Shown here one piece after another: positions 13,276 to 63,530 of a stretch of 64,000 bases of DNA. This stretch comes from Candidatus Gastranaerophilales bacterium (GTDB taxonomy: Bacteria; Cyanobacteriota; Vampirovibrionia; Gastranaerophilales; Gastranaerophilaceae). The notes under the pieces were generated by a model, which was not told the origin of the DNA, did not search any database, and was given only the letters and a program-made list of their open reading frames with translations. The stretch's first letter is position 1, and the number at the start of each line of letters is the position of its first letter. The translations under genes and the position numbers were made by a program. The DNA is taken from the NCBI GenBank assembly GCA_944324345.1, contig CALUVT010000002.1:248001-312000 (forward strand), in the 5' to 3' direction.

Positions 13276-14487
13276 ATGAATAAAAATTTGAAATATACAT
13301 GTTTATTTGGTGGGGGTGCAATCCGAGGAGTATCATATATCGGAGCAATAAAAGCTATGGAAGAGCTTGGAATTTGCATAGACACTTTCGGTGGCTCTTC
13401 AGTGGGTTCTATAATAGCTGCCCTTTTAGCAGTAGGGTACACTGCAGATGAATTAAAACAGATTTTTTTAAAAGTTAATTTTGAACTTTTTAAAGATATA
13501 TCAATAGCCTTTGGACCTATTTTTGCAATAAGCAAAGGGGAAGTCTTTCTTGAATGGGTTAGAGAGCTTATTGAGAAAAAATTTTATGGTGAAAATTATA
13601 AAAAAGGTGCTAACAAAGCCGTAACATTCAAAGATATTGAAAAAAATCTTGTCATAATAACTACAAATCTTTCGAATTTTGAATGTAAAGAGTTTTCACG
13701 CTTTGAAACTCCTGATTATGAAATAGCTTCAGCAATAAGAATTTCATCTTGTATGCCAGGGTTAATGAAGCCAATAGAATATAACAATACTCTTTTGGTA
13801 GATGGCGATTTACAAAAAAGTTTTCCAATGTGGAAGTTATCTAAAAATTTAAATTCTGCTAAAGAAAGAATCCTCGAATTTAGGCTTGAAGGAGATTATG
13901 ATACTAATAATCTTTCAGGGATCGACTACGCAAATGCTGTGTATAGCTGCATGACTGCAATGTCTACATCGTTTATAACAAGTATATATGCAGATAAGGA
14001 CAAATATGATTACATTGTTTTAAATACAGGGGACATTGTCATTGTAGATTTTAATATGAATCAAGCCAAAAGAACTGAACTTATTGAATCAGGATATAAG
14101 CAAACAATGAAATATTTTACGGAAATCTTACCGGTAAAGAAGATTAAAATAAAAAATAACTATGAAAAAATTCTCACATTTATGTTGAGGATTGAAAAGT
14201 TAATCAATTCCAGAAAAATTTTTAAAGCTAAAATAGAGCTTGGAGATTTGTTTATTGAACTTGCAGATTTATCTTTGAACATTGATGCCAACGATTTTAA
14301 TGACATAAAATCATTTAAAGATACATTTATAAAAAATATCAAATATCCACCCCTTTTTGGACCAGTATCATTAGGGAATGAACTTTTAGTTAAGACCGAA
14401 TTGACACGGGTAAACACAAAGTTAAAGGACAAAATTTCAGAACTTGAAGAATATATACTAAAATTCCCAACAAAACAAAATTCTTGA
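13276..14487 (+). CDS. Patatin-like phospholipase
   Basis: Predicted lipid acyl hydrolase with a Ser-Asp dyad. The oxyanion-hole motif GGGAIRG is at 12-18, the nucleophile elbow GSSVG at 40-44 (Ser42), and the Asp motif DGD at 176-178. The catalytic domain covers about residues 7-200. The remaining 200 residues are helical and not recognised. No signal peptide, so a cytoplasmic or peripheral membrane role is likely. The stop codon overlaps the -35 box of the following tRNA promoter. Confidence 0.9.
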   Translation: MNKNLKYTCLFGGGAIRGVSYIGAIKAMEELGICIDTFGGSSVGSIIAALLAVGYTADELKQIFLKVNFELFKDISIAFGPIFAISKGEVFLEWVRELIEKKFYGENYKKGANKAVTFKDIEKNLVIITTNLSNFECKEFSRFETPDYEIASAIRISSCMPGLMKPIEYNNTLLVDGDLQKSFPMWKLSKNLNSAKERILEFRLEGDYDTNNLSGIDYANAVYSCMTAMSTSFITSIYADKDKYDYIVLNTGDIVIVDFNMNQAKRTELIESGYKQTMKYFTEILPVKKIKIKNNYEKILTFMLRIEKLINSRKIFKAKIELGDLFIELADLSLNIDANDFNDIKSFKDTFIKNIKYPPLFGPVSLGNELLVKTELTRVNTKLKDKISELEEYILKFPTKQNS

Positions 14488-14512
14488 CATATTCTAATGT
14501 TTACGCTAATAT
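14484..14512 (+). promoter_or_regulatory. Sigma70-type promoter of tRNA-Leu
   Basis: TTGACA at 14484-14489, a 17-nt spacer and TAATAT at 14507-14512. The -35 overlaps the patatin stop codon. Predicted transcript start near 14519, about 58 nt before the tRNA. Confidence 0.8.
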
Positions 14513-14576
14513 AAATTTGCTCAAAGTCTTGTATATATGCTTAAATGAGCTTTTGAACATACAAAAAAATTTATAT

Positions 14577-14662
14577 GCCCTGGTGGCGGAATCGGTAGAC
14601 GCGTCGGACTTAAAATCCGGTTGGAGTTAAATCCAGTGCCAGTTCAAGTCTGGCCCAGGGCA
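14577..14662 (+). tRNA. tRNA-Leu (anticodon TAA)
   Basis: The acceptor stem GCCCTGG (14577-14583) pairs with CCAGGGC (14655-14661), with A as discriminator. The anticodon arm reads CGGACTTAAAATCCG, giving anticodon TAA. A long variable arm follows, as in class II leucine tRNAs, then a T arm with GTTCAAGTC. The 3' CCA is not encoded. Reads UUA and UUG codons, fitting the AT-rich codon use. Confidence 0.95.
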
Positions 14663-14666
14663 AGTT

Positions 14667-14694
14667 AAAAGAACTCATAAAGAGTTCTTTTTTT
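14667..14694 (+). terminator. Intrinsic terminator of tRNA-Leu
   Basis: AAAAGAACTC and GAGTTCTTTT stem with a 5-nt loop and T-run directly after the tRNA. Confidence 0.85.
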
Positions 14695-14705
14695 ATGTAA
14701 AAAAA

Positions 14706-14752
14706 TGTTAACAAAAATTTAAATTAAAGCAATTTATCGATTTTTATATACT
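14706..14752 (+). promoter_or_regulatory. Shared upstream element and -10 box
   Basis: TGTTAACAAAAAT, then AAAGCAATTT at 14726-14735 and TATACT at 14747-14752. The first two parts recur almost identically at 35566-35597. The AGCAATT...TATACTTTATATATATA arrangement recurs with the same 19-nt offset at 22961-22985. Confidence 0.5.
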
Positions 14753-14783
14753 TTATATATATATATTATACACGAGGATTATT

Positions 14784-15797
14784 ATGACTTTTAATTCTTT
14801 CATGGACAGTATAGGCAATGCATTTAAAAAAGGCTGGAACAATGGTAATCTTGCCAAGGGAATTAGCCTGCTTGGGGCAACAACGTTTACCGTTGGTCTT
14901 ACAGGTGCCGCAATTCATGATATGAATAAAAATAGGTGTTTTGGCAGTTGTGGCAGTATATGGTCATTTAGACCACCATATAACCCAATGAATTACATGA
15001 TGGGCATGAATCTACTGCAAAATAGTATGCTTATTAAGGCAAATCAAAATAACTTATATGCATATAATGGCATGGGAGGCTTACCATTTGTTTCTTCAGG
15101 ATTCCAGTACAATCCTTATGGAGGGATGAACAATTTTTATAGCATAACGGGTGGCATGAACCCTTATCAGTACGGACAAATGTTGATGCAACAGGCTTGT
15201 GCACAAATGCAAAATACCGGTATTACTGACGTTATAGGAGCAACAAAACAGAACAATGAATATGCCGGCGAATGGAAAGCAGATCAAAGTACTGAAGCAG
15301 GAGAACAATTTGATAATGCTTTAAAAGGCATGAATGATTCTGAAGGGAATCCTATTGAAGGGAAAACATTTAAGATTTCAGATGCGGAAAATGCAACAGA
15401 ATATCGTCAAGACCTCTCGGAATTAGGCAAGTCGTACGCTGCATATATTGAAAAAACAAGCGGTAACGGTGATAGACTTTTAAATGAAGAAGAATACATA
15501 AAATTTGAACTTTCTCAGCTACCAAGTGACGCCACAGAAGAACAAAAAGCTAACATAAAATTAGCTGGTCATTATGCATTTTCAAGAATAGATTTAAATA
15601 AAGATGGTAAAGCTGATTGGAAAGAAATTGCAGCAGCAATCGCAACATTTGACACAAATAATAAGGATAAATTAGATGGTCAGGTAACTTCAACAGATGC
15701 ATATAATATTTCAAGTGCATTAGGGAATCCAAATGATCCAACATTCTCACAAAAAATAATTAAAAACTATAAACACTTATTTGGAAATAACGAATAA
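14784..15797 (+). CDS. Uncharacterised protein with C-terminal EF-hand
   Basis: 337 aa. The N-terminus has a weakly hydrophobic segment (AKGISLLGATTFTVGLTGAA) followed by a Met/Asn/Tyr/Pro-rich stretch (PPYNPMNYMMGMNLLQN). The C-terminal third holds a canonical Ca-binding loop DLNKDGKADWKE at 270-281 and a degenerate second one about 20 residues later. Resembles the protein at 23022 in overall style and in its promoter element, so the two may be co-regulated. GAGGA precedes the ATG. Its 3' end overlaps the convergent csaB by 21 nt. Location and role unknown. Confidence 0.68.
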   Translation: MTFNSFMDSIGNAFKKGWNNGNLAKGISLLGATTFTVGLTGAAIHDMNKNRCFGSCGSIWSFRPPYNPMNYMMGMNLLQNSMLIKANQNNLYAYNGMGGLPFVSSGFQYNPYGGMNNFYSITGGMNPYQYGQMLMQQACAQMQNTGITDVIGATKQNNEYAGEWKADQSTEAGEQFDNALKGMNDSEGNPIEGKTFKISDAENATEYRQDLSELGKSYAAYIEKTSGNGDRLLNEEEYIKFELSQLPSDATEEQKANIKLAGHYAFSRIDLNKDGKADWKEIAAAIATFDTNNKDKLDGQVTSTDAYNISSALGNPNDPTFSQKIIKNYKHLFGNNE

Positions 15798-16787
15798 TTC
15801 ATCAAAAATCGACCAATCAAAAGACTTTGAAGCGGCGAATTCAAGAAGTTTTTCGCCGCTTAAATTATGCAATTTCGAATACAGTTCTTCAAAATCAATA
15901 TCAGCACTCATCGGTATAATTGGAATAGAAGCATCAGCAGCAAGCTTTTCAACTTTTATATCATAATTAATAGCACAAGTTTTCACTCCGCTTTTTATTG
16001 CAACCAACAAAGCGTGAAAACGCATTCCAATCATATACTCCAATTTTGAAATTCTCTCTACAATATTATCAGTAACTATTTCTGTATTTATTTCAGGTTT
16101 AATTGAATGTAAAATCACTTCAAATTTTCTTGAAACATCCATATCCAAGCTTTGTTGCAATGAAAATATTTCAATTTTTTTGTCACTAAAATGGTTAGCA
16201 ACAAAGGTAGCTAATTTATTCAAAAGATTTAAATTCATAGTTTTAAAATCTCTTAATTGTATTCCAACAGAATTTTCAGGGTACTTTCTGCCTACATTTA
16301 GAGAATAAATCGGATCACAGACAATTTTCGCACGAACTTTATTGGTATCTAAAAGTTTTAAGCTCAACTCGTCCCGAACAGTAACTAGGGTAGCAAATTT
16401 CAATAAATTCATCACGATATATTCAGCGAAATTATTATTTATAGGTCCAATACCTTGTGCAAAAATCACAACTTTTTTATTAAATAAAAGCCCCAAAGCT
16501 ATAATTGAAGAGTAATAAACCAAACTTTTTAAGCTGGTAACATCTTGTAAAAGGCTTCCTCCACCGGAGATTAAAATGTCAGATTTCGCAATTGATTTAA
16601 CAACCTTAAAAAGATCAAAACTTTTTACAGAATTAACCTTGTACATTTTTGAAGTAAAATCAGGATCAGAAGAAAAAACAGTTATATCAACTCCTATTTT
16701 CTTCAAATGTTCTACTAAAACTGATAAAATAGCTTCATCGCCAAAGTTTTTAAATCCATAATAGCCTGATATTACAGTCTTAACCAT
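15777..16787 (-). CDS. csaB: Polysaccharide pyruvyl transferase, CsaB type
   Basis: Transfers pyruvate from PEP to a cell-envelope polysaccharide. The GT-B-like fold shows GYYGFKNFGDEAIL at the N-terminus, ISGGGSLLQD near residue 85, the AQGIGP motif, and the C-terminal GMRFHALL motif. From ATG 16787 (GAGG upstream) it is 336 aa; the longer frame to 16817 lacks a Shine-Dalgarno. It overlaps the end of kdgK by 8 nt and is co-transcribed with it and eda. Pyruvylated polymer is the known ligand of SLH domains, and an SLH protein is encoded at 38728-40002. Confidence 0.88.
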   Translation of the reverse strand: MVKTVISGYYGFKNFGDEAILSVLVEHLKKIGVDITVFSSDPDFTSKMYKVNSVKSFDLFKVVKSIAKSDILISGGGSLLQDVTSLKSLVYYSSIIALGLLFNKKVVIFAQGIGPINNNFAEYIVMNLLKFATLVTVRDELSLKLLDTNKVRAKIVCDPIYSLNVGRKYPENSVGIQLRDFKTMNLNLLNKLATFVANHFSDKKIEIFSLQQSLDMDVSRKFEVILHSIKPEINTEIVTDNIVERISKLEYMIGMRFHALLVAIKSGVKTCAINYDIKVEKLAADASIPIIPMSADIDFEELYSKLHNLSGEKLLEFAASKSFDWSIFDELFVISK

Positions 16788-17724
16788 TATTACCTCTATA
16801 AATTGAATATACCTCATCTTTGTAAGGGATTGACTTTATAGCACCGATACCTTTCGCCTGGATACCAGCTAAAATTGCGGCAAACCTTGTTGCCTCAAAA
16901 GGTGTAAATCCATGAGTGTAAGCATGCAAAAAGCCACCATTAAAAACATCTCCTGAGCATGTCGTATCAACATAATCAGAAGTGAAGAATTCAGTAAAGA
17001 CAATATTGCCGTTATACCCCGTAAAGTATCCGTTTCTGTCAATTGATTTTAGCACAACAATAGAAATACCCATGTCCCAAAGCTTTTTAATTGCATTTTC
17101 ATAAGAATCAATATCAAGAATATTAACAAAATCATGCTTAGTATTCATAAACATAATATCCACATACGAATCAACCCTTGCAAAGGCTTCTTTTGCATCT
17201 TCAGGAGTCGTTAATCTTGAATGATAATTCGGATCATAAGCTGTAGTTATACCATTACTCTTAGCAAGTTTAAAAGCATATTCAACCGCCTCATCCGCAC
17301 TAGGAGAAAGCGATTGGGTAATACCTGAAGAATATACAATTGAGGAATTTTTAATATATTCTTCACTAATATCCTCAATTGAAAGTTTAGATGGAGCAAT
17401 TTTTTTCCTATAATGCACTATTTCTTTCTCATTGAGGGAAGGTCTTGCTATTATATATAAACCATTTGCTTCGTTAGTCAACTTTACCTGTGATATGTCC
17501 AACCCTTCATATTGCCAGCTTTCAAGCAAAAATTCCTTAAACGGGTCATCTCCAACTCTTGTAATAAAACCTACTTTAGACCCCATTCTTAAAGCCGCAA
17601 TAGCCGAAGCCAAAACATCTCCACCATAACTTTTATAAAGACAACTTGCCTCAGACATTTTCGCATTAGTTGATAATTCAACTAAACTCTCCCCAATTGC
17701 TATTATATCTAATTTTTCATCCAT
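16780..17724 (-). CDS. 2-keto-3-deoxygluconate kinase-like PfkB sugar kinase
   Basis: Ribokinase/PfkB family, 314 aa. N-terminal GESLVELS and SYGGDVLASAIAALRMG form the sugar site. The C-terminal signature DTTCSGDVFNGGFLHAY at about 253-269 contains the catalytic Asp259; GAGD is replaced by CSGD, an acceptable family variant. The adjacent KDPG aldolase gene 6 nt upstream suggests phosphorylation of 2-keto-3-deoxygluconate, i.e. the second half of uronate or Entner-Doudoroff catabolism. Substrate assignment rests on this context. AAAAGG precedes the start. Confidence 0.82.
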   Translation of the reverse strand: MDEKLDIIAIGESLVELSTNAKMSEASCLYKSYGGDVLASAIAALRMGSKVGFITRVGDDPFKEFLLESWQYEGLDISQVKLTNEANGLYIIARPSLNEKEIVHYRKKIAPSKLSIEDISEEYIKNSSIVYSSGITQSLSPSADEAVEYAFKLAKSNGITTAYDPNYHSRLTTPEDAKEAFARVDSYVDIMFMNTKHDFVNILDIDSYENAIKKLWDMGISIVVLKSIDRNGYFTGYNGNIVFTEFFTSDYVDTTCSGDVFNGGFLHAYTHGFTPFEATRFAAILAGIQAKGIGAIKSIPYKDEVYSIYRGNNG

Positions 17725-17730
17725 ATGTGA

Positions 17731-18339
17731 TTAACCTTTTAATTCTTTTAAAACTTTTCTTACTCGTTGAGTAATTTCATCAGTTGTATAGTTTTCATAA
17801 AAATCACGTCCTACCCCAACAACTGATGCTCCTGCATTAATATAAGATTTTATCTCATCAATTTTTACATTTCCAAGTGGCATGATGTTTAAAAATGGCA
17901 TAGGTCTTAACAAATCTTCAACATACATAGCACCACCCATAGCAGTGATAGGATAAATTTTTATCAGCGGTATTCTTGCTTTCCAAGCGCTATAAGCTTC
18001 ATTTGCCGTTGATGTTCCTGCGATATAAGGGATTTGTTTATCTTTCGATATTTTAACCAAATTCATTGAAAAAATTGGCGAAGATATAATCCTGGCTCCT
18101 GACAAAATTGCTGCATCTGCTTGCATTGAGGTTATAACTCCTCCCGCACAAACGTACGCTGATTTCGAAACTTCTTCTATAACCTTGTAAATTTCCGGAG
18201 TTTCAACATTAATCTCAAGAGCCTTAATCCCTCCATCTATTAGTGCTCCTGCTATATCTAAAGCCCTTTTAGGGTCCCTGCTTCTAACTATTGGAAAAAC
18301 TTTTTCATCTGATAAAAGCTTAATTAAATTTTCTGTCAT
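17731..18339 (-). CDS. eda: 2-dehydro-3-deoxy-phosphogluconate (KDPG/KHG) aldolase
   Basis: Class I aldolase that splits KDPG into pyruvate and glyceraldehyde 3-phosphate in the cytoplasm. 202 aa, the normal length. The TIM-barrel markers are FPIVRS, the general base Glu in EINVETP (E42), the phosphate loop CAGGVIT, the AGTSTANEA strand, and the Schiff-base lysine in LIKIYP (K127; usually KFFP). First gene of the eda-kdgK-csaB operon, with AAAAGGAT upstream. Pyruvate from here meets pyk and gpmI products encoded elsewhere in the window. Confidence 0.88.
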   Translation of the reverse strand: MTENLIKLLSDEKVFPIVRSRDPKRALDIAGALIDGGIKALEINVETPEIYKVIEEVSKSAYVCAGGVITSMQADAAILSGARIISSPIFSMNLVKISKDKQIPYIAGTSTANEAYSAWKARIPLIKIYPITAMGGAMYVEDLLRPMPFLNIMPLGNVKIDEIKSYINAGASVVGVGRDFYENYTTDEITQRVRKVLKELKG

Positions 18340-18394
18340 AATCTATCCTTTTTTCGAAATTTATTATATCATAAAAGAAAGGAATTTAGAGAAG

Positions 18395-20344
18395 ATGAAA
18401 ATATTCAAAGGCAAAACCTTCTTTTTAAAGACGATATTTTTTCACATATTTTTGGTACTTATAATCGCATTTGTTTCACTGAATTTTTGGGAAAATCCGA
18501 TATATGATACCATAATTAACAGTGTTAACGCTAATCAACACGGCAGCGATGAAATATCTCTCATCGTAATTGATGACAAATCCCTGGACAGCTACAGATG
18601 GCCTTGGGCAAGGTCTTTATATGGAGAAATTTTTGATTACCTTAATAAATACACTAATGCTAAAGTCGTGGTATTCGATTCAATCCTAAGAAGTCTTGAT
18701 AAAGAAAGACCCGCATCTTCTGATAACTACTTTTTTGACGTAGTAAAGAAGTCTCCAAACTTTGTTGGCGGCTATATGGCACTACTCCCTGAGTATGAGA
18801 ATGTCCAAAGTGGTGAACAATATGACAATGAATTTCATAAAAAGTTTGCAATTGATATATCAGATACCAGAACAAAAAATAACTCCAGACACAGCTTTTA
18901 TAAAAGTCTCACAGTGTTCCCGGAAAGATACTTTAACTCTCTCAGGCAGGTCGGTAGTGTAAATTTAAATCTTGATCCTATTGACGGAGTATTAAGAACA
19001 TCTAATGATTTGATCAGCTATAATGACAATTTTTATCCTTCATTAGCCCTTAGCACCTACCTGCTGGCACATAAAACGGACAAAATTACTCTAACCAATA
19101 AACATATTGTTGTTGATAAAACAGGTTTGAAAATACCCCTTGTAAAAAGAAGCGGTGATCTTTGCCACTACATAAAATATTATAAATTGTACGATAATAC
19201 TTCATTTTCTCATAAAAATTATTCTGCAATAGATATTATAAATTCTTTCAGATTACTCAATGAAGGTAAAAAGCCAATTATAAACCCAAAAGAATTTGAT
19301 AATAAAATTGTTTTGGTAGGTGCAAATGCACTTGGAGTGGAAGATGTTTTGGAGACTTCTATTTCGCTAAATCATCCGGGAGTTGACATACAAGCAACAA
19401 TTTTAAACAACTTTCTTGATAATGATTTTATTATAAAACTTCCGGGAATAATCAATTTTGTAATTATATTATTCTTTACAATTATCACTTTTGCACTAAT
19501 TCTTACATTACCTTTCCTTGCATCTTTAATACTTCTACTAATAGTTGCAGTACTGTACATTATAATGTGTATTTTCTGTTTCAAGCACAATATTGTACCA
19601 AATGTAATTACCCCGATAGCTGTTCAACTTAGCACAATGATATTTGGCTATTCATACCGATTTATCGTAGAAGGTAGAAATAAGGAAAAAATTAAAAATG
19701 CGATGGGGAAATATCTGTCCCAAGATATTATGAAAAATGTCGTTCAAAACATAGATGACATAAAATTAGGAGGGAAAAAAGCCAACGTAACCGTTTTATT
19801 TGCTGATATAAGAGGCTTTACAAGCATGAGCGAAAAAATGACAGCTGAAGAAGTTTCTGTTATTTTAAACGAATATTTTTCTGAAATAGAACCAATTATA
19901 ACAAAATACAATGGTGTAATAAACAAATTTATAGGAGACGCTGTTATGGCAATTTTTGGGGAACCTATACAAGATATAAACCATCCCCAAAACGCTGTAC
20001 GCTGTGCTTGTGAAATGTTAAAAAAAGTTGATCAGCTTCAAGAAAAATGGCTTTTTGAAGGAAAACCTAAAATAGAAATAGGGATAGGAATTAACACAGG
20101 GGAAGCCTTTGTTGGAAATATAGGTTCAGAAAAGCGTCTCGAATACACAGTAATTGGTGATATGGTGAATCTCGCAAGCAGGATAGAAAGTTACAACAAA
20201 GTGTACAAAACCAATATGTTAATAAGCTCTTCAACATATTCATACGTAAGCGATATAGTAGATGTTATAAAGATAGCAGATGTAACTATCCGCGGCAAAG
20301 CTAAAAAAATGGATATATACGAGGTTTTACGATTAAGTGATTGA
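18395..20344 (+). CDS. CHASE2-domain adenylate cyclase
   Basis: Membrane sensor making a cyclic nucleotide. Residues 12-30 are a first transmembrane helix. About 50-345 are an extracytoplasmic CHASE2 sensor (ISLIVIDDKSL, WPWARSLYGEI). Two or three more membrane helices lie at 350-430, and a class III cyclase domain spans about 445-649. Metal-binding Asp471 lies in FADIRGFTSM and Asp515 in GDAVMAIFG. LEYTVIGDMVNLASR supplies the adenine-specificity and transition-state residues, favouring cAMP. The stop overlaps the recG start by 8 nt. Cyanobacteria are rich in this architecture. The signal sensed is unknown. Confidence 0.9.
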   Translation: MKIFKGKTFFLKTIFFHIFLVLIIAFVSLNFWENPIYDTIINSVNANQHGSDEISLIVIDDKSLDSYRWPWARSLYGEIFDYLNKYTNAKVVVFDSILRSLDKERPASSDNYFFDVVKKSPNFVGGYMALLPEYENVQSGEQYDNEFHKKFAIDISDTRTKNNSRHSFYKSLTVFPERYFNSLRQVGSVNLNLDPIDGVLRTSNDLISYNDNFYPSLALSTYLLAHKTDKITLTNKHIVVDKTGLKIPLVKRSGDLCHYIKYYKLYDNTSFSHKNYSAIDIINSFRLLNEGKKPIINPKEFDNKIVLVGANALGVEDVLETSISLNHPGVDIQATILNNFLDNDFIIKLPGIINFVIILFFTIITFALILTLPFLASLILLLIVAVLYIIMCIFCFKHNIVPNVITPIAVQLSTMIFGYSYRFIVEGRNKEKIKNAMGKYLSQDIMKNVVQNIDDIKLGGKKANVTVLFADIRGFTSMSEKMTAEEVSVILNEYFSEIEPIITKYNGVINKFIGDAVMAIFGEPIQDINHPQNAVRCACEMLKKVDQLQEKWLFEGKPKIEIGIGINTGEAFVGNIGSEKRLEYTVIGDMVNLASRIESYNKVYKTNMLISSSTYSYVSDIVDVIKIADVTIRGKAKKMDIYEVLRLSD

Positions 20345-22715
20345 CGATCTTGCACAAATTAAAAAAGCAATAGAAATTGAGATACAATACAGATATATTG
20401 ATATACACGGTAAAACACAATCATTTTCAAGCTACATAAAAAATGAAGCGAAAAAATATTACAAACTTTCTAAAAAAAGTCCTAAGTGGGCTCTTTTAGT
20501 AGAAATATTTGAGCATTACCCGTATGCCAATGTAAATGAACGCAGAAAAAGTATTGACAGATTAATAAAAATACTCAAAACAGAAACAACCCCAAAAACG
20601 TCCATGAATAAAACCTCTCCACATTACAAAAAAGCCGGAGACACAGATGTTGCATATATAAAAGGGGTAGGTCCTAAAATAGCTTACAAACTTAATAAGC
20701 TTGGGATAGATACCGCAAAAGATTTAATGCTCTACTTCCCTAAAAAGCACATTGACTACTCTTCAAGAACATTGATTAAAAACCTTAAAGAAGGAGAAAC
20801 AACAACAGTATTTGGCTACATCAGCTCAGTTTCTGCTTTTAATACAAAAAATAATCTATCTGTCGTAAAGGTTACTATTACTGACGAAAGCGGGAAAATA
20901 GACTTGAGCTTTTTTCAAGCAAAATCAAATCAATTTATGCTCCAAAGAATAAAAGCTCAATTCCCTCACAAAGCTGGAATCATGGTATCAGGGAAAGTTA
21001 AACGTAGCAGCTACGACAACAAATTGACTTTTGATAAACCAAGCTACTCAATAATGACAGGGGAATTTATTGAAGATAAAAATTCAAACCTTAATATTGC
21101 TCGTATTGTCCCAATATACACAGTATGCGAAGATTTAAGCATAAAAGTACTAAGACGTGCAATATTTAATGCTATTCAAATGTACAAAAATGACATTGAA
21201 AATATTGTTCCAGATTATATAAGAGAAAAATACAAAATACTAGATAAAAAAGTTGCAGTAGAACAAATTCATTTTCCTGAAAGTATGGAACTTTTAGAAC
21301 AGTCAAGATTTTCCCTTATATTTGAAGAACTTTTTATTATTCAGCTAAAACTTGCAAGGATAAGGGAAGAAAATTCTCACACTCACTCATCAATTGCATT
21401 GAAAGTAAAAGATAACGGTCTGGTAAAACAATTTATAAATAACCTGCCATTTGAACTGACAGGAGGCCAAAAAAGAGCGGTAAACGAAATTTTAAATGAT
21501 CTAAATTCAGATATCCCTATGGCAAGACTTTTACAAGGAGACGTCGGAAGCGGCAAAACAGTAGTTGCGACAATTATGTTGCTAGCCGGGGTGGAAAATG
21601 GTTATCAGGGGGCGATTATGGCACCTACCGAAATTTTAGCACAACAACACTATAATAATTTAATAAAATGGTTGACACCAATGGGACTGAGTATCGGTTT
21701 ATTTCTCGGCAGCCAAGGGCAAAAGATTAGGGAAAAATTCAGAACTGATTTGCGTAACGGTCAAATGAATATAGCTGTAGGTACGCATGCATTAATACAA
21801 GAAGGTGTAGACTTTAACAACCTTGGTGCAATAGTAGTGGATGAACAACACAGATTCGGAGTTAAACAACGCAATGTTCTAAAAAAGAAATCTCAAAATC
21901 CCCAAATTTTAACAATGACAGCAACGCCAATCCCAAGGACTCTTGCTTTAACTGTCCACGGGGATTTAGATTTAACAATAATAGATGAACTCCCCAAAGG
22001 AAGAAAACCGATTAAAACATCTCTGGTAACCTCTCACAGAGGGGTATATGAACTTATACAAAAAGAAGTAGAACAAGGAAGACAGGCCTATGTTGTTTAT
22101 CCGCTAATTGATGAGAGTGAAACCCTTTCTGCAAAAGCTGCAACTATTGAGGCCGAAAAACTGCAAAAAGAAGTTTTCCCAAATTTTAGAATAGGTTTAC
22201 TTCATGGGAAGTTAAAAAATGCAGAAAAAGAAGAAATTATGTCAGACTTTAAAGAAAAAAAATATGATATACTTGTTTCCACAACAGTTGTTGAAGTTGG
22301 GGTTGATGTTCCTAATGCTACTGTAATGCTTATTGAAAATGCAGAGCGTTTTGGGCTTTCACAACTTCATCAACTTAGAGGCAGAGTTGGAAGAAGTGAT
22401 CTCCAATCATACTGTATACTATACACGGCGTCAAAATCTCAAGAAACAAGAGAAAGACTAAATATAATGACTCAAACAAATGATGGGTTTGTGATTGCCG
22501 AAAAAGATTTGCAACTAAGAGGTCCAGGAGAATTTTTAGGAACAAGGCAGAGCGGATTACCTGATTTAATTATTTCTGATATTGTTAGAGATGCTAAAAT
22601 ACTAGAGGTAGCAAGATCAGAGGCTATTAATTTTATAAAAACACACAATATTGATAATTACCCAACACTAAAAGAGCTAACATCAACAAATATATTTGGC
22701 AGCCTTGATATATAG
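20337..22715 (+). CDS. recG: ATP-dependent DNA helicase RecG
   Basis: Branch-migration helicase for stalled forks and Holliday junctions. 792 aa. An N-terminal ~100-residue extension precedes the wedge domain (VAYIKGVGPKIAYKLNKLGI, OB-fold VFGYISSV). Walker A GDVGSGKT is at 401-408, the DEQH box at 502-505, motif III TATPIPRTLAL, and motif VI QLRGRVGRSDLQSYC. The extension is longer than in E. coli RecG (693 aa), as in cyanobacterial forms. GTG start within the cyclase 3' end, so translation is probably coupled. Confidence 0.95.
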   Translation: MIDDLAQIKKAIEIEIQYRYIDIHGKTQSFSSYIKNEAKKYYKLSKKSPKWALLVEIFEHYPYANVNERRKSIDRLIKILKTETTPKTSMNKTSPHYKKAGDTDVAYIKGVGPKIAYKLNKLGIDTAKDLMLYFPKKHIDYSSRTLIKNLKEGETTTVFGYISSVSAFNTKNNLSVVKVTITDESGKIDLSFFQAKSNQFMLQRIKAQFPHKAGIMVSGKVKRSSYDNKLTFDKPSYSIMTGEFIEDKNSNLNIARIVPIYTVCEDLSIKVLRRAIFNAIQMYKNDIENIVPDYIREKYKILDKKVAVEQIHFPESMELLEQSRFSLIFEELFIIQLKLARIREENSHTHSSIALKVKDNGLVKQFINNLPFELTGGQKRAVNEILNDLNSDIPMARLLQGDVGSGKTVVATIMLLAGVENGYQGAIMAPTEILAQQHYNNLIKWLTPMGLSIGLFLGSQGQKIREKFRTDLRNGQMNIAVGTHALIQEGVDFNNLGAIVVDEQHRFGVKQRNVLKKKSQNPQILTMTATPIPRTLALTVHGDLDLTIIDELPKGRKPIKTSLVTSHRGVYELIQKEVEQGRQAYVVYPLIDESETLSAKAATIEAEKLQKEVFPNFRIGLLHGKLKNAEKEEIMSDFKEKKYDILVSTTVVEVGVDVPNATVMLIENAERFGLSQLHQLRGRVGRSDLQSYCILYTASKSQETRERLNIMTQTNDGFVIAEKDLQLRGPGEFLGTRQSGLPDLIISDIVRDAKILEVARSEAINFIKTHNIDNYPTLKELTSTNIFGSLDI

Positions 22716-23021
22716 AAATATGTTTATTAACCTCATAAAGAAAAAACATACAAAGCAAGCATTTATTTAGGATTTATGGATTTTGTACATGCAAGAGCAT
22801 CAAATAAAAAAAAGCATTCTTAAAAAACAAATTAAATCTAACAAGTTTAATGTAATGTGGACTTTTTAAGTTAAATGGGTTTTTAAAGATTAAATTTTGG
22901 GCATATATTATTATCCCCTTCTTAATTGTGAAGAAATATTAAGTAAAAAAGTAAGAAAAAAGCAATTATATAACTCATATATACTTTATATATATAAGAG
23001 AGTATAATAAGAGGAACAGAC
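22716..23021. other. 306-nt intergenic region
   Basis: Holds the 5' region of the gene at 23022, including the AGCAATT element and -10 box. No supported open frame (the best is 26 codons without a Shine-Dalgarno), no tRNA and no clear terminator for recG. Confidence 0.6.
22961..22985 (+). promoter_or_regulatory. Shared AGCAATT...TATACT promoter element
   Basis: AGCAATTATA at 22961 and TATACT at 22980-22985, followed by a TATATATA tract. It matches the promoter of the gene at 14784 with identical spacing (19 nt between the box starts). Confidence 0.5.
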
Positions 23022-23969
23022 ATGGGTTACTATGGTATAACAGGCTGGTCAGGCGGAGGCAGAAGACCTATAAATTATGGGTTAAAAGCTGGGCAGTTTA
23101 GAATGACAAAATATAATATCCCTCAAAATACAACCATTATCAATAATAATATTTCGGTTGGCGGTTACAGAGGAGGTTATAATTATAATTATTTTGACAA
23201 CCAATGCTATAATAACTCAACTCCTAGTTGGCTGAATTGGATGATGGGCATCGGCCTTGGGACATCATTGCTAGGCAGCATCTTAAGCTTATTTGGCGGC
23301 AACAGAACGGAAGCCGGTGCTCAGGAAACAGGTACAAATCCAGCAGGTACAAATCCTAGAGCTACAGGGCAAGAGCAACAAGGTGAATTTGATGGGCTTA
23401 AACAGCTTTACCCAGACGGAAGCTTTTCAAAAATCGGTGACACATACTATGCACTAATTGATGGAGTTCGTTATGAATCTAATACAATAGATGGTTTACT
23501 TGATGAAATTCCTAGTGGACAAACAGCAGTTCAGACTCCTGAGGCTAAAGATAGCGATGAGACTCCAGAGCTAACAGCACTTGAACAAGCATACCAAAGT
23601 AATGATGTAGACAACTACGCGCCTGTTAAATTTGAAGAAAATAATTTAGCAAATATATTCAAAAACATTTCCGGCGTATTTGACTACGGTAAAGATAGCA
23701 ATGGCAGAGAAATTGGTGATTTCGAAAACGCCAAAGCTGACTTACAGGGTAAAACAGAATTCAAAAAAGGTGACATTATACAAATTGGCGGAAAAAATTA
23801 CAAAATCCTTAATACAGATGGTTTCGTATACCTTCAAGATGTTGATTCAACCAGAAATGGTAATCAGGTATACATACTAGAAAAAACAGCCTCAGGGGCA
23901 TATCAATTGTCACAAAGAAGTTTCACTGGAACAGAAGGTTTTGGAAGAGCCGCTTGGCCACAATCATAA
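23022..23969 (+). CDS. Uncharacterised Gly/Asn-rich protein
   Basis: 315 aa. The N-terminal ~60 residues are rich in Gly, Asn and Tyr (GWSGGGRRP, GGYRGGYNYNYFDN). One hydrophobic segment WMMGIGLGTSLLGSILSLFG lies around residues 70-90. A polar linker and a C-terminal beta-rich domain follow, with a FKKGDIIQIGGKNYKIL motif like small SH3/KOW-type barrels (weak resemblance). AGAGG precedes the ATG. A single-gene unit between its own promoter and a terminator. Shares promoter architecture with 14784. Function unknown. Confidence 0.66.
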   Translation: MGYYGITGWSGGGRRPINYGLKAGQFRMTKYNIPQNTTIINNNISVGGYRGGYNYNYFDNQCYNNSTPSWLNWMMGIGLGTSLLGSILSLFGGNRTEAGAQETGTNPAGTNPRATGQEQQGEFDGLKQLYPDGSFSKIGDTYYALIDGVRYESNTIDGLLDEIPSGQTAVQTPEAKDSDETPELTALEQAYQSNDVDNYAPVKFEENNLANIFKNISGVFDYGKDSNGREIGDFENAKADLQGKTEFKKGDIIQIGGKNYKILNTDGFVYLQDVDSTRNGNQVYILEKTASGAYQLSQRSFTGTEGFGRAAWPQS

Positions 23970-23974
23970 AACAA

Positions 23975-24003
23975 AAAACTCCTTATTTAAAGGAGTTTTT
24001 TTA
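23975..24003 (+). terminator. Intrinsic terminator
   Basis: AAAACTCCTT and AAGGAGTTTT stem with loop ATTT and T-run. Confidence 0.85.
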
Positions 24004-24073
24004 TAAGAAAATTATTTGCAAGAATATAAATTAAATGTATAATATTTTTGTTGAGAGAAAGAAGGTTTTTCAA

Positions 24074-24511
24074 ATGAATAATTTTAAAGTCGCAATTGGC
24101 TCAGACCATGGTGGTTTTGAATATAAGCAGGCTATTATTGAATTTTTAAAATCAAAGAATATAGATTATGTAGATGTGGGAACATATTCAAAGGAGTCTT
24201 GTGACTATCCTGTTTTTGCAAAAAAGGTTTGCGAAAAAATCTTATCAAATGAGGTTCAACGTGGAATTCTAATATGTGGAACAGGAATTGGTATGTCAAT
24301 TGCGGCCAACAAAATAAAAGGTATAAGAGCTTCTTTGTGTGGCGATACGTTTTCAGCAAGAGCTACAAGGGCACACAATAATTCAAATGTGCTTTGTATA
24401 GGACAACGGGTAATTGGAGAAGCTCTAGCTCTTGATATCGTCGATATATGGCTGAAAACAGATTTCGAAGGCGGTAGACATCAAAGAAGAATTGATATGA
24501 TTGAGTCATAA
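24074..24511 (+). CDS. rpiB: Ribose-5-phosphate isomerase B
   Basis: Interconverts ribose 5-phosphate and ribulose 5-phosphate. 145 aa from ATG 24074, which has GAAGG upstream; the frame from 24035 overlaps the promoter TATAAT. Family motifs: IGSDHGGFEYK at the N-terminus, VGTYSKESCDYP, the active-site loop ICGTGIGMSIAANK with catalytic Cys, and HNNSNVLCIGQRVIG. Transcribed with rsfS downstream, 63 nt away. Confidence 0.94.
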   Translation: MNNFKVAIGSDHGGFEYKQAIIEFLKSKNIDYVDVGTYSKESCDYPVFAKKVCEKILSNEVQRGILICGTGIGMSIAANKIKGIRASLCGDTFSARATRAHNNSNVLCIGQRVIGEALALDIVDIWLKTDFEGGRHQRRIDMIES

Positions 24512-24574
24512 ATTTCTTGCAGATGATAAGGTTTTGTGATAAAATAGTAGAACACATTAGTAGAAGGAAAATTT

Positions 24575-24967
24575 ATGCAAGAAGAAATCGATTCAAAAAA
24601 ACTTGCCTGCGTAATAGCACAAGTACTTGATGATAAGCTAGGTAAAGATATAACAATCTTAAATATCAGTAATGTCTCTTCCCTTGCTGATTATTTCGTA
24701 ATAGTAACCGGCGACTCAACACCTCAGGTAAAAGCTCTGATGAATGAAACAAAAGATAAAATCAAAGAATTATTCTCACGCTCACCTTTAAGAGTCGAAA
24801 ATGATGCAAAAAACAGATGGAATCTTTTGGATTATGGCGATGTTGTAGTCCATATATTACATAAGGAAGAACGAGAAACTTATGCAATAGAGAAGTTTTG
24901 GAGTAACGCATTCAGCATCAATGAGAACGAGTGGCGTGAAATATCAAAGGAATATTCAAAGTTTTAA
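24575..24967 (+). CDS. rsfS: Ribosomal silencing factor RsfS
   Basis: Binds L14 on the 50S subunit and blocks subunit joining under nutrient limitation. 130 aa, with the family core NVSSLADYFVIVTGDSTPQVKAL, then NRWNLLDYGDVVVHI and the C-terminal FWSNA. AAGGAAAA precedes ATG. In many bacteria rsfS follows nadD; here it follows rpiB and ends at a terminator. Confidence 0.94.
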   Translation: MQEEIDSKKLACVIAQVLDDKLGKDITILNISNVSSLADYFVIVTGDSTPQVKALMNETKDKIKELFSRSPLRVENDAKNRWNLLDYGDVVVHILHKEERETYAIEKFWSNAFSINENEWREISKEYSKF

Positions 24968-24978
24968 TAACGTAATTG

Positions 24979-25005
24979 GCTCCGCATAAGTGGAGCTTTT
25001 CTTTT
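24979..25005 (+). terminator. Intrinsic terminator
   Basis: GCTCC (24979-24983) with GGAGC (24992-24996), followed by TTTTCTTTT. Confidence 0.75.
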
Positions 25006-25115
25006 AAGCAGATTGATTTATCCTGTTACATTTCTAAATAGTGTTGCAATATGGAAGAAATAATGTAAAATAAAAGCAGGTATACTTTTGAAATAAGAGA
25101 GAAAAGCAGGTCATA

Positions 25116-26174
25116 ATGAGTACAGAAATTGAAAAGCAAATCAATGAACTAATAGTAGAAATGGCGAAAGAGCCAAAAAATATCGAGAACTATCACAAAC
25201 TTGCAGAACTTTATCTAAAAGTTGAAGATTACGATAAAGTAATGTCGGTACTTGAAAGTCTTTTAACTATAAAACCGGATGATGTACAAGCCCTTATAGG
25301 TATGGGTACTATGTGGTTTTATGAGAAAGATTTCAGAAAATCTCTTTCCTACTACAACAGAGCTCTTGAAATTAATCCTAAAAACTTCCTCATATACTAT
25401 AACATGGGTAATGTTTTTGCTGAGTGGAAAAACTTTTCGAAAGCACTTTTTTACTACAATAGAGCAATTGATTTAAACTCTACTAATCCCGAAATTTATA
25501 ATGCAATAGCTCTCTTATACCAAGATAACGAAGATTATGTAGAATCAAAAGCTTATTATGAGAAAGCACTTTCACTTGACCCAGAAAACCTTACAGCTCT
25601 TGTAGATATGGGTAATGTTTGTTTTAAGCTTTTTGATTATGAAACAGCACTCGAACTTTATAAAAAAGTTTTTGCACTTAACCCTGATAATAAAATTGTT
25701 GCAATATGTATAGGCAATACCCTGACATTAATGAGAGAAAGAGAGAAAGCATACAGCTATTTTGAAAAAGCTTTAAAAATGGAAGGTGACAACTATAAAG
25801 CCTACATCTGTTATGCAATTGCACTTTCTGAATTTGGGGAATACGATATGGCAGTTGAAATGTATAAACGTGCAGAAAAAGTTCAACCCAAAGAAATTGA
25901 TGCCCAAATTCTTCTGGCTAATTTATATACAAATTTCAACCACATGGACTTGGCAATGGACCTATACAAAGAAGCTATCAGGCTAAAACCGAACAGTGCA
26001 GAAACGTATATGCTCCTTGGCAATGCACATTACCTTAAGGGTGAAATTGAACAAGCAATTGCCTCTTATCGTGCTTCAATTAATATTTCTCCTGAAAATG
26101 ATGAATATAGGTTAATTTACACGCAAGTGCTTGATGAGTATATTGATAAAAAAAGAAGTGGAGAAACTGCATAA
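25116..26174 (+). CDS. Tetratricopeptide repeat protein
   Basis: 352 aa consisting almost entirely of about nine TPR units of 34 residues (for example YYNMGNVFAEWKNFSKALFY, then NAIALLYQDNEDYVESKAYY). Such solenoids are protein-binding scaffolds. No signal peptide or catalytic domain, so probably cytoplasmic. The stop is directly followed by the ATG of a small membrane protein gene (no gap), suggesting that the two products work together. Confidence 0.9.
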   Translation: MSTEIEKQINELIVEMAKEPKNIENYHKLAELYLKVEDYDKVMSVLESLLTIKPDDVQALIGMGTMWFYEKDFRKSLSYYNRALEINPKNFLIYYNMGNVFAEWKNFSKALFYYNRAIDLNSTNPEIYNAIALLYQDNEDYVESKAYYEKALSLDPENLTALVDMGNVCFKLFDYETALELYKKVFALNPDNKIVAICIGNTLTLMREREKAYSYFEKALKMEGDNYKAYICYAIALSEFGEYDMAVEMYKRAEKVQPKEIDAQILLANLYTNFNHMDLAMDLYKEAIRLKPNSAETYMLLGNAHYLKGEIEQAIASYRASINISPENDEYRLIYTQVLDEYIDKKRSGETA

Positions 26175-26585
26175 ATGCGTGAAAATAACTCAGCTTACCT
26201 TATAGAAAGAATTGTAGCCGGTTTTTCTTATCTTACAATGGGTATGGCAGGCTTTATTTGGTTAATTATAAGTCTTTTTACAAAAGCTGGATTGAAACCT
26301 TTTTTGCAGTATCACATATTTCAGTCAATATTTATATCTTTGGCGTTCGCTGTTTTATCAATATTTGTCGGATGGGTTTCAAACATTTTGAGTTTTGTGC
26401 CATTCATAAACAAAGTGGTTGCACAGTTGACTTTTCTGCTCAATATGCCTTTGATGTTTAATTATTCTTTGATTCAGACAGTTATTTATGTATTTCTGAT
26501 TTACCTTGCAGTAATGGCTTTTGCCGGAAAATATAGTTATATACCTTGGATTTCAGAAATCATTGATCAAAACGTTTCCAGATAA
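26175..26585 (+). CDS. Tic20-like / DUF4870-like small membrane protein
   Basis: 136 aa with four predicted transmembrane helices. FLQYHIFQSIFISLAF resembles the FLRFH-QS motif in the first half of bacterial Tic20-family and DUF4870 proteins; cyanobacterial Tic20 homologues are the ancestors of the chloroplast import subunit. The match is by eye and moderate. Begins immediately after the TPR gene stop, so strictly co-translated with it. Role unknown. Confidence 0.6.
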   Translation: MRENNSAYLIERIVAGFSYLTMGMAGFIWLIISLFTKAGLKPFLQYHIFQSIFISLAFAVLSIFVGWVSNILSFVPFINKVVAQLTFLLNMPLMFNYSLIQTVIYVFLIYLAVMAFAGKYSYIPWISEIIDQNVSR

Positions 26586-26612
26586 ATAAAAACCCTGCAA
26601 AAGATGCAGGGA
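26584..26612 (-). terminator. Intrinsic terminator of the phosphodiester glycosidase gene
   Basis: CCCTGC/GCAGGG stem with a 7-nt loop. The T-tract is on the minus strand (26584-26592), so it serves the minus-strand gene ending at 26648; it also lies just past the plus-strand gene. Confidence 0.75.
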
Positions 26613-26647
26613 GCTGTGCAATGATGAAAAGATTATGAATTATGATA

Positions 26648-27907
26648 TTAAGATTTATCAATTTTTGTAAGGACAACAGCATTCGATAAAGGAATACCAC
26701 CTTTCATTTGCGGGTTATTTACAACTTTGCCGTTAACATACATAACTGTTGAACCACCACCATCAAGATTGATTGCACCAACACAGCCTATTGACTGCAT
26801 AAAATTTGCAAGTTCCATCAATGTCATACCGATTGAACTACCTTCTCGCCCATCAACCGCAACGAGTATTATGTTGTTATCAGAAGTATATCCAATAGTG
26901 CTTCTTGGGTTTCTTCCGCCTATTGCTCCAAGTTTTTGAGCAGTCATGTCAACATAAACCTCTCCATTTTTTACAAGATAGGGACCACCACTTATAATAT
27001 GTTTTACACCTTGCCAATCCGGAATTGTATTTAAAGAAAGTTTAACATCTTTTTTATCAAGAAGAGCATATAATATACTTTTTGGCCCTGAAATAACATA
27101 TCCGTTTGGGGGGATTTCAACAGCATTTGCAGAAGCTTTAGTGATTTTATTATCAATTACCTGTAATCCTACACCATATTTTGGTGCTGCAGGAGAATAT
27201 TTGCCCCACTGAGGAGTATAAACAAGAACGTGTGTAGAGAGCATTCTAGGTTGATTTATATTGTCAACTTTAACAGTTTTTCCACTTCCCTTTATAGAAG
27301 CATTTAATTGAACTCTTGCAATATCAAAGCCGTCATCAAAAATTCCTAATGCAACTCTATCATATATTGGGCCGGTATACATTTTTTTGTTAATCATTAA
27401 AGTCCCAAGTGGAACTCCTGATTGAGGTTTAAAATATGTACCGTTTAAGGCAACAATTGCGTCATTATTTTTTGCGATAGTTGAAATTGTCTTTCTGCTT
27501 TTTAAAGTTGAATTTGACGACAAAACAGGAGTAATCTCGAGATTATTCGCTAGTTTAAAGTCTATTTCAACAACATTAATTCTTACAGGCCTTCCGTTGT
27601 AATACTTAGTTAACTTTATGTGCTTAACGCCATCAGTAACGTCAGCAATGACAGCTTTAGGGTATTTTTCTTTAATCAAATTATCAAAATTTTTTTGTCT
27701 TACTTGTGGAGAAATTTCATTCATGATTTTTTCTTTTGAGAAATTTACATCAAAGTCAGGCACTGAAACTTTTGCAACTTTAACTCCGCTTGCATGAATC
27801 GGCATCAGCACCTGACACAAAATTAAAACCCCAATTACAGATATGTTAACAAGAACTTCTGTTAATTTTCTCAGCTCATAGTTTTCAGCATAATAGAACG
27901 TATCCAT
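26648..27907 (-). CDS. Phosphodiester glycosidase family (NAGPA/DUF2233) exported protein
   Basis: 419 aa from ATG 27907, which follows AGAGGTG. One membrane segment lies at about residues 18-38 (ISVIGVLILCQVLMPIHAS), so the catalytic part is probably outside the cytoplasm. The domain resembles uncovering enzyme: AIVALNGTYFKPQSGVPLGT, the RSTIGYTSDNNIILVAVDGR strand, and the signature INLDGGGSTVMYVNGKVVN near the C-terminus. The family cleaves GlcNAc-phosphodiesters or acts in exopolysaccharide metabolism. Preceded by a structured leader of about 150 nt. Substrate unknown. Confidence 0.85.
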   Translation of the reverse strand: MDTFYYAENYELRKLTEVLVNISVIGVLILCQVLMPIHASGVKVAKVSVPDFDVNFSKEKIMNEISPQVRQKNFDNLIKEKYPKAVIADVTDGVKHIKLTKYYNGRPVRINVVEIDFKLANNLEITPVLSSNSTLKSRKTISTIAKNNDAIVALNGTYFKPQSGVPLGTLMINKKMYTGPIYDRVALGIFDDGFDIARVQLNASIKGSGKTVKVDNINQPRMLSTHVLVYTPQWGKYSPAAPKYGVGLQVIDNKITKASANAVEIPPNGYVISGPKSILYALLDKKDVKLSLNTIPDWQGVKHIISGGPYLVKNGEVYVDMTAQKLGAIGGRNPRSTIGYTSDNNIILVAVDGREGSSIGMTLMELANFMQSIGCVGAINLDGGGSTVMYVNGKVVNNPQMKGGIPLSNAVVLTKIDKS

Positions 27908-57255: not shown

Positions 57256-57282
57256 TATGGAAGAGAGATAAGGAGCACATTT

Positions 57283-58076
57283 ATGGAAGAAATGAAAAAG
57301 CTTAGAATTGCCCCCCCCCCGAAGTTTTGGGCATAATTAGAGTTGATTACATGCGAAGTTTTGCCTTTACACTTGCTGAAGTTTTAATAACTCTTGGGAT
57401 TATAGGAGTTGTCGCTGCTTTAACTATACCGGGACTTTTACGTGATTACCGAAACAAAGTTTTAAAAGAGCAGTTTAACACAGCTTATTCAATCGTTAAC
57501 GAAGCTACAAAACGAATGAGCCTTGATAATCCCGATATTATGAACACTTATTGCGGTACAAATGCATCAAATAACACATTAGAGGCTAGAACGAAGTTTG
57601 GGAAAGATTTTTCAAAATATTTTGATGTAATCATAGACCAAACCTCTCAAGGGACAAATATAAGCAAACTATATGGAATAAGAAGTCTAAATCAACCAAA
57701 TTACAAAAAATTTGACAAAGGACCTGATGGCAACGGATTTAATGATGGGGCTTTTGTGATAAAAAATGGAATGATTATTCTAAATGGTCACTGTTGGATA
57801 GGAGCATCAAATAAAAAGGGACAGCACGTAGAATTTTTAATAGATACAAATGGAACAAAAGGACCTAATGCACTTGGATACGACCTTTTTTACTTCTGGA
57901 TTGATAACGAAAACAAGATAGTAACCTGCCCGCAAATCCCAGATAATACTAGATACTGTAATTTTTTAACAGAGGACACCACAGGAGCACACAATGGTGT
58001 AAATTGTTCAACTTTTGCACTAAGAAATCAATTTCCACAAGATGAAACAAAAACATACTGGGAAAACTTGCCTTAA
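57283..58076 (+). CDS. Type IV pilin-like protein A, phase-OFF by a C10 tract
   Basis: ATG 57283 has an ideal Shine-Dalgarno (AAGGAG, 7-nt gap), but translation reaches ten C at 57311-57320 and then stops at TAA 57334-57336. With eleven (or eight) C the same start would read through into the long frame, which is open from 57327 to 58076. That frame encodes a prepilin helix FTLAEVLITLGIIGVVAALT (Glu at +5) and a globular domain with several Cys ending TYWENLP. As written, no start inside the long frame has a Shine-Dalgarno (TTG 57327, ATG 57351). The pilin resembles pilin B at 62738. Ends overlap the convergent SNF2 gene by 4 nt. Confidence 0.8.
57311..57320 (+). repeat. Homopolymeric C10 tract in the pilin A leader
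   Basis: Ten consecutive C between G residues, inside codons 10-13 of the reading frame from ATG 57283. A run of this length is exceptional in this AT-rich window and is of the kind prone to slipped-strand mispairing. Confidence 0.9.
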
Positions 58077-62737: not shown

Positions 62738-63507
62738 TTATGGGAGACATTCCCAGTAAGTTTTGGAAGAATCAGTTTCGCACTTATTTGCTACTGCATA
62801 TTTAGAGCAAGTAAAACCCTGATAGTGTTCTCTTTGACTTGTAAGACATCCACCAAAAGCAGTGTATGGGACCAAATTATTATTTTTATCAATACTAAAC
62901 GAAAACAAATCATATCCTAAACGATTGGGGCCTTTGGCCGGGCCATTTATATCAATGTGATAACCAGAACCAGCCCAAGGGCCCATAAATATAAGTATAC
63001 CACTGCTTGTAATTATTGATTTTGTAGTTAGTGAATCTGGGTCGATATGGGCATAACTACCCTTTACAAAAGAATCATACGCTTTTGGATTTCCACCTGC
63101 ACATTTCAGATAATATATATTGCACATTCTTGAATTTGAGATATATTTTATGAGCCTGTCCAAATGATTTGAATATCTGTCCTTTCCTGGTATTGAGCTA
63201 TCCTGCAAATCATTATACATAGAAGGATAATCCTGAGCCATAGCCATATTTGCGTTTGCGAGAACTGAATAAGCAGTTTTAAACTGGGTTTCTAAAACCT
63301 TTTTTTGATATTTGGCAATCAAGGCCGGAATAGTTATTGCAGCAATAACACCAATTATACCAAGGGTAATCAAAACTTCTCCAAGAGTAAATGCATCTCT
63401 TTTGCATATCACATCTTTACTATAAAAAGAAGAAGCTTCTAAAACGCCCCCCCCCCGAAAATACCACTGCAAGTGGATTTACGATTATTAATAAATAAAC
63501 TCTTCAT
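62738..63507 (-). CDS. Type IV pilin-like protein B, phase-OFF by a G10 tract
   Basis: ATG 63507 has AAAAGGAG 6 nt upstream and encodes MKSLFINNRKSTCSGIFGGG, but after ten G it stops at TAG near 63439. With eleven (or eight) G the start joins the pilin frame running to 62738. That frame has the prepilin motif FTLGEVLITLGIIGVIAAIT after an unusually long leader, a Cys-containing globular domain, GPNRLGYDLFSFSID and the C-terminus TYWECLP. The only other start in the pilin frame is a TTG at 63472 without a Shine-Dalgarno. Paralogue of pilin A. It lies 24 nt behind the T-run of a structured RNA. Confidence 0.8.
63447..63456 (-). repeat. Homopolymeric G10 tract (coding strand) in the pilin B leader
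   Basis: Ten consecutive G on the minus strand within codons 18-21 of the frame from ATG 63507. Same length and same frame effect as the C10 tract of pilin A. Confidence 0.9.
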
Positions 63508-63530
63508 ATTCAGCTCCTTTTCTATTCTTT

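Follow-up and report, generated by a model that had tools for sequence, protein, structure and literature searches.

Ten-base G/C tracts in the leaders of type IV pilin-like genes of a Gastranaerophilales bacterium: probable phase variation of a large pilin repertoire

Two tract-bearing pilin genes in the window

The window analyzed in this study is a stretch of 64,000 nucleotides (C2:248001-312000) from the 1.76 Mb genome of a Gastranaerophilales bacterium (G000), called the source genome below. It contains two type IV pilin-like genes, designated pilin A and pilin B, in which a homopolymer of ten bases separates the start codon from the frame of the pilin body (Table 1). The initial annotation had described for pilin A a Shine-Dalgarno sequence (AAGGAG), the start at ATG 57283, a run of exactly ten C and an in-frame TAA at 57334-57336, and had stated that one added C or two removed C would join this start to the pilin frame. 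Direct reading of the sequence bore out each of these statements. The tract is directly preceded by a G (57310), it begins 28 nt past the first base of the ATG, and the pilin frame is open to 58076. ORF translation gives a TTG-start ORF of 249 amino acids in this frame (57327-58076). The prepilin profile score of pilin A is 19.3 bits, just below the cut-off of 21.2 bits, and its FTLAEVLITLG motif is intact.

The same layout recurs on the opposite gene strand in pilin B, near the window end, a gene that the initial annotation does not mention. The region upstream of pilin B (63530-63700) is locally GC-rich (GCGTGGTCTCGCAGGTGGGTGAACGCCTCGG...), and an Rfam search of the window end, including this region, matched no RNA element.

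Table 1. Features of the two pilin loci and associated elements (window positions unless another contig is given).
Feature	Position	Strand	Remarks
Shine-Dalgarno AAGGAG of the tract-bearing pilin A start	57270..57275	+	read from sequence
Pilin A ORF as read at C10	57283..57336	+	ATG 57283-57285; OFF product MEEMKKLRIAPPPKFWA, then stop
AAGCTT flank, pilin A	57298..57303	+	3' of the G10 run on the G strand; conserved in both gene orientations
C10 tract, pilin A	57311..57320	+	minus strand (leading here) has G10; OFF at 10, ON at 11 or 8
Pilin A frame, class III / type IV pilin-like	57321..58076	+	FTLAEVLITLGIIGVVAALT; open from tract to stop
Internal alternative ATG, pilin A	57351..57353	+	MRSFA followed by FTLAEV; without Shine-Dalgarno; possible tract-independent start
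Pilin B body	62738..63446	-	FTLGEVLITLGIIGVIAAI; frame open from tract
AAGCTT flank, pilin B tract	63433..63438	-	
G10 tract, pilin B	63447..63456	-	C10 on the plus strand; OFF at 10, ON at 11 or 8
ATG of pilin B	63505..63507	-	product at G10 MKSLFINNRKSTCSGIFGGGAF, then stop; frame reading
Shine-Dalgarno AAGGAG, pilin B	63514..63519	-	read from sequence
Cumulative GC skew peak, likely replication terminus	14000..27000	.	G000:C2 about 262-275 kb; tracts switch strand across it
OafA-like acyltransferase with internal C10	L033:1284-2375		G000:C3 about 52 kb; ON at 10; sole non-pilin tract of at least 10 in the genome

Tracts in the source genome

Pilin A is not an isolated case: the source genome has 47 pilin loci of this kind, pilin A among them. 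This genome contains 48 G/C tracts of at least ten bases versus about 0.05 expected for its size and 33% GC, so chance can be excluded. Tracts of exactly ten bases account for 44 of them and eleven is rare; among shorter runs, length 9 occurs three times and length 8 does not occur. Forty-seven tracts lie between a Shine-Dalgarno-preceded start (ATG, with one GTG) and a pilin signature, and the remaining one is internal to the ORF of an acyltransferase (Acyl_transf_3, E 1e-29), which stays open with a tract of ten. The run is G-sense in 41 tracts and C-sense in seven. Since there are 69 matches to the pilin signature and 47 tract loci, some pilins have no tract. The prepilin N-terminal motif (FTLxE, N_methyl, IV_pilin_GFxxxE) scores above the curated cut-off at L023, L027, L030, L029 and L002, and the tract genes are predicted by their signatures to encode type IV pilin-like proteins. 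At L002:1471-3008 (G000:C1 about 211.9 kb), a single ORF combines a prepilin N-terminus (N_methyl) with head repeats of the YadA type, known from trimeric autotransporter adhesins (YadA_head, E 1.6e-26), and its leader contains a G10 tract that is in frame at 10.

Reading frames at the tract pilins

The frame analysis covered 89 pilin loci in four species, with all tract lengths taken from assembly consensus. Ten-base tracts were found at 82 loci, where the gene was OFF in 79, ON in two and without a clear start in one. Six loci had eleven bases (four ON, two OFF) and one had twelve (OFF). Among the 88 loci with a clear start, 81 belong to the class that is ON at 8 or 11. The frame from tract to pilin motif was open at 89 of 89 loci, an open pilin frame being a condition of detection that only three tracts failed, and the other two frames contained stops at 87 and 85 loci. 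A Shine-Dalgarno-preceded start (ATG or GTG) was present at 88 of 89 loci, nearly every locus had an early stop in the zero frame, and the downstream ORF was at least 218 codons long in 83 of 86; the OFF genes thus keep an intact body. This logic was the same for G-sense and C-sense genes. In the source genome, the consensus was ON at three of the 47 loci with length 11 and at two with length 10. In G060, a member of a different genus, all 14 ten-base tracts were OFF, and the ON class was 8/11 for all 15 tracts sampled. Loci of G007 had at first seemed to be ON at 10; this reading was dropped, as the true Shine-Dalgarno and ATG lie further upstream and give OFF.

The uniformity of the OFF phase differs from what is expected of unrelated contingency genes, about a third of which would be ON, whereas here ten bases nearly always mean OFF. 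Part of this uniformity is explained by the descent of the pilin genes from a common ancestor. In the leader between tract and motif, no third-codon-position bias was found (130, 165 and 145 differences at positions 1, 2 and 3); the leader stays free of stops without sign of amino acid constraint.

An internal in-frame ATG is present at 47 of the 89 loci and is lacking at 42. In addition, a promoter-like element (TTGTAA, about 17 bases, TGnTATAAT) was seen by eye within the leader of many tract pilins (for example L010, L026, L031 and L040). It lies between the tract and FTLAEV, directly 5' of an ATG or ATA codon (the frame reads YNSDMKHH), where it could possibly give rise to a leaderless internal transcript. 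With about half of the loci having an internal ATG, many of them beside this promoter-like TGnTATAAT, OFF loci may not be silent, and OFF pilins, including pilin A by way of ATG 57351, might be expressed at some level. Some pilins of G003 and G009, such as L101, L108 and L120, have very long leaders before FTLAEV, segments of which recur between loci and have the look of repeat insertions.

Replication strand and flanking sequence

Third-position GC skew predicted the strand of the tract in 40 of 40 cases (two species), which places the run of G on the leading strand for genes of either direction. The direction of replication in this statement is read from the skew; a search for the DnaA motif in the stretches examined gave no match, so the origin is placed by skew alone. 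In the source genome, the probability that base and replication strand would agree at every tract by chance is about 1.4e-8 (1 in C(48,7)) if the loci are taken as independent. Strand-specific slippage could produce this polarity, as could deamination that erodes C runs on the more exposed strand.

The flanks are conserved as well. Read on the G strand, the source genome has C at -1 in 48 of 48 tracts, T at -2 in 45 and C at +1 in 47. AGCTT occurs within 20 nt on the 3' side in 32 of 48 tracts and on the 5' side in three. These counts were not chosen by AGCTT. In a larger motif set, which was partly chosen by it, AGCTT is found in each of the three frames and in genes of either sense and is therefore a feature of the DNA, not of the protein. 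The TC-G10-C...AGCTT context is conserved in the genus of the window; the flank in G060 differs, so AGCTT is lineage-specific. As a cause of the tracts, a genus-wide flank motif was rejected, since species without TC-G10...AGCTT matches still have tracts and the other genus has another flank.

When 84,980 species genomes were scanned for TC-G10-CNNTNNNAGCTT, 44 stretches were returned. One was from Pseudomonas, and the others were Gastranaerophilales, Melainabacteria or uncultured bacterium records and one 'Fusobacterium sp. CAG:439'. The latter record (L141, FR900465.1) has the Gastranaerophilales tract motif and is probably mislabelled.

Tract length among copies and relatives

Several pairs of paralogues differ by single bases in the tract. 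For example, a tandem pair in G001 (L074) has nearly identical Shine-Dalgarno, leader, tract and flank, with G11 (ON) in one copy versus G10 (OFF) in the other. Loci with a shared leader differ in the same way in G003 (L241 and L125, C11 ON versus C10 OFF) and in the source genome (L030, G11 ON versus L005, G10 OFF). A tandem pair in G060 (L263) has G12 and G10, and both eleven-base tracts of G029 are ON. As read from the assemblies, these differences between paralogues show that length changes did occur; they do not give the frequency of such changes.

The initial annotation had proposed a count of tract lengths in related genomes, in which a mixture would support switching. Across the assemblies of 33 genomes of the genus, with non-pilin tracts included, lengths 9, 10 and 11 all occur (148, 1,621 and 150 tracts), but the lengths are hardly spread, as 1,621 of these 1,919 tracts have length 10. 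Ten-base tracts are present in 29 of the 33 genomes, with up to 169 in one relative. In the wider order, several genera of this family commonly carry them, and other families nearly lack them.

The relative G002 is a natural contrast to the species locked at 10, with a broad range of lengths from 9 to 15 (L270-L287). Many of its tracts lie in genes for a fucosyltransferase, a polysialyltransferase, Glycos_transf_2 (GT2), an epimerase and a polysaccharide deacetylase. Sugar-modification genes of this type are textbook targets of phase variation. Loss of mismatch repair was rejected as a cause of the tracts or of the broad lengths in G002, since mutS1 was above the cut-off in 13 of 14 genomes and mutL in 32 of 33, and both are present in tract-rich and tract-poor species alike, G002 included.

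Interpretation of the tracts

We consider it probable, with real room for doubt, that the C10 tract at 57311 belongs to a set of 48 simple-sequence contingency tracts in this genome and that a large pilin repertoire is subject to slipped-strand phase variation; this is the best explanation of the data. Translation would start at the Shine-Dalgarno-preceded ATG, and at length 10 the ribosome would meet a stop a few codons on, so that the pilin is not produced (OFF). During replication, slipped-strand mispairing would occasionally give length 11, or rarely 8, which would join the start to the pilin frame (ON). The equilibrium of slippage would be near 10, with the frames arranged such that 10 is OFF. 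With the length resting at 10, which nearly always gives the OFF frame, any one pilin would be ON only in the smaller part of the lineages. Populations would then be heterogeneous, and one cell would express and display on its surface a small, changing subset of the pilins.

This reading had been offered for pilin A in the initial annotation. It gains from the open pilin frames, from paralogues that are one G apart and from the tracts of a relative in phase-variable surface genes, while switching between cells is what we infer from them. The tracts of G002 in sugar-modification genes, together with the length changes, make slipped-strand phase variation the natural reading. However, several results count against slippage in its simple form. 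First, the lengths are far tighter than in known systems, so that a strong restoring force or selection has to be assumed. Secondly, mutS and mutL are present. Third, the replication-strand rule is not predicted by simple slippage, and the strand polarity and conserved flank are not required by it.

A dedicated process, to which we assign a distinctly smaller probability, should also be weighed. It would maintain the ten-base length, the off-by-one frame and the leading-strand context, either as a replication-coupled factor that reads TC-G10-C...AGCTT and sets or switches the length, or as programmed recoding. If it exists, the repertoire would be a controlled switch of low duty cycle, not a passive mutational one.

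Programmed recoding taken by itself is somewhat less probable still. Length 10 would here be the working length, and on G10 or C10 a -1 frameshift by the ribosome or slippage of RNA polymerase would yield a fixed pilin fraction per gene. This would hold the tract at 10, since 8 or 11 bases would make expression constitutive and 9 or 12 would abolish it. The uniform OFF state at 10 is equally expected from such a site, and the uniform length and off-by-one frame in two genera and the early zero-frame stop at nearly every locus agree with it. However, the orientation of the tract goes with the replication strand rather than with the sense of the mRNA, and one DNA motif serves G-sense and C-sense genes. 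Both senses would need a -1 shift, although the tRNAs that read GGG differ from those that read CCC. There are eleven-base alleles, most of them ON, and lengths are broad in the sugar-modification genes of the relative. Lastly, no common downstream RNA element was seen other than AGCTT, which is on the G strand of the DNA whatever the sense.

It is improbable that TC-G10-C...AGCTT is chiefly a site of recombination or repair which shuffles pilin leaders and bodies, comparable to the guanine quartet of pilE/pilS, with the effect on frame secondary. A directional motif conserved at about 48 dispersed loci with G always on the leading strand is what such a site would show, and identical leaders occur at loci far apart (L003/L005/L030; L012/L036/L037). 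However, ordinary duplication fits the shared leaders, and nearly all loci have their own Shine-Dalgarno and start and are not silent start-less cassettes. A near-match to the motif also lies within the unrelated acyltransferase, and the sister genus has G10 and the OFF frame with a different flank. An error of sequencing or assembly that fixes the count at 10 is hardly credible, for although homopolymers are error-prone and all sequences used are consensus assemblies, ten-base tracts occur in 29 of 33 genomes of the genus, contig names of relatives are of both the SPAdes (NODE) and the MEGAHIT (k127/k141) type, lengths of 9, 11, 12 and 13-15 are reported where present, and pilin tracts of 11 mostly coincide with ON.

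Significance and comparison with known systems

The probable slipped-strand phase variation of pilins in non-photosynthetic cyanobacterial relatives, which are little-studied and known from gut samples, suggests an exceptionally large phase-variable gene set within one family, aimed at the pilus surface. The same tract at dozens of loci per genome in dozens of species is also a natural test of homopolymer length and strand in bacteria, in which the questions are why the length is 10, why it is almost always OFF and why G is always on the leading strand. In practice, gene prediction may place the starts of these pilins at internal codons or call frameshifts. The initial annotation knew of no phase-variable pilin in this lineage, and our literature searches agree: for Gastranaerophilales and phase variation they returned no paper, and the sole Melainabacteria match concerned flagellin diversity. 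Coverage of the literature was incomplete, so novelty is provisional. The slipped-strand mechanism is known; its present form and scale appear to be undescribed.

Four known systems are close to the arrangement reported here. The Vlp proteins of Mycoplasma, as cited in PMC11868660, are combinatorial surface lipoproteins, and as far as that citation describes them they likewise are a family of surface paralogues with combinatorial variation in expression. They belong to another organism and protein family, whereas the genes described here are type IV pilin-like, dispersed on the chromosome and equipped with in-frame tracts. The pilE/pilS antigenic variation of Neisseria with its guanine quartet (PMC3547852) also combines many pilin variants with a G-rich element near the 5' end of the pilin gene. 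Unlike that system, start-less silent cassettes and a single expression locus were not found here, and each pilin has its own start and tract.

The phasome of Campylobacter jejuni is similar in having many in-frame poly-G/C tracts of around 8-11 bases per genome. Strain NCTC11168 has 29 poly-G/C loci of 7 or more, a set of colonies gave G8 257, G9 214, G10 431, G11 77 and G12 9, and flanks were reported to be without influence on slippage (PMC4965091). C. jejuni is without mismatch repair (PMC4235727). In contrast to this spread from G8 to G12, the tracts described here occur with mutS and mutL present, are tight in length and almost always OFF at 10, and have conserved flanks and strand.

Lastly, the poly-G contingency genes of Neisseria (pilC1/pilC2, lgt/pgl) resemble the present loci in that a pilus or surface gene has a G/C homopolymer within its reading frame, and the frame sets ON or OFF. 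In that genus tracts of at least 9 count as phase-variable, the genomes of the pathogens and of N. lactamica have 15-19 poly-G tracts on average, and pilC is listed with G 9-20 (PMC5953494). Those tracts have wide ranges and lie in genes for a pilus-associated protein and for sugar enzymes, whereas the source genome has 44 ten-base tracts, and a relative up to 169; nearly all tracts of the source genome belong to genes for the pilin subunits themselves, and their length is nearly fixed at 10.
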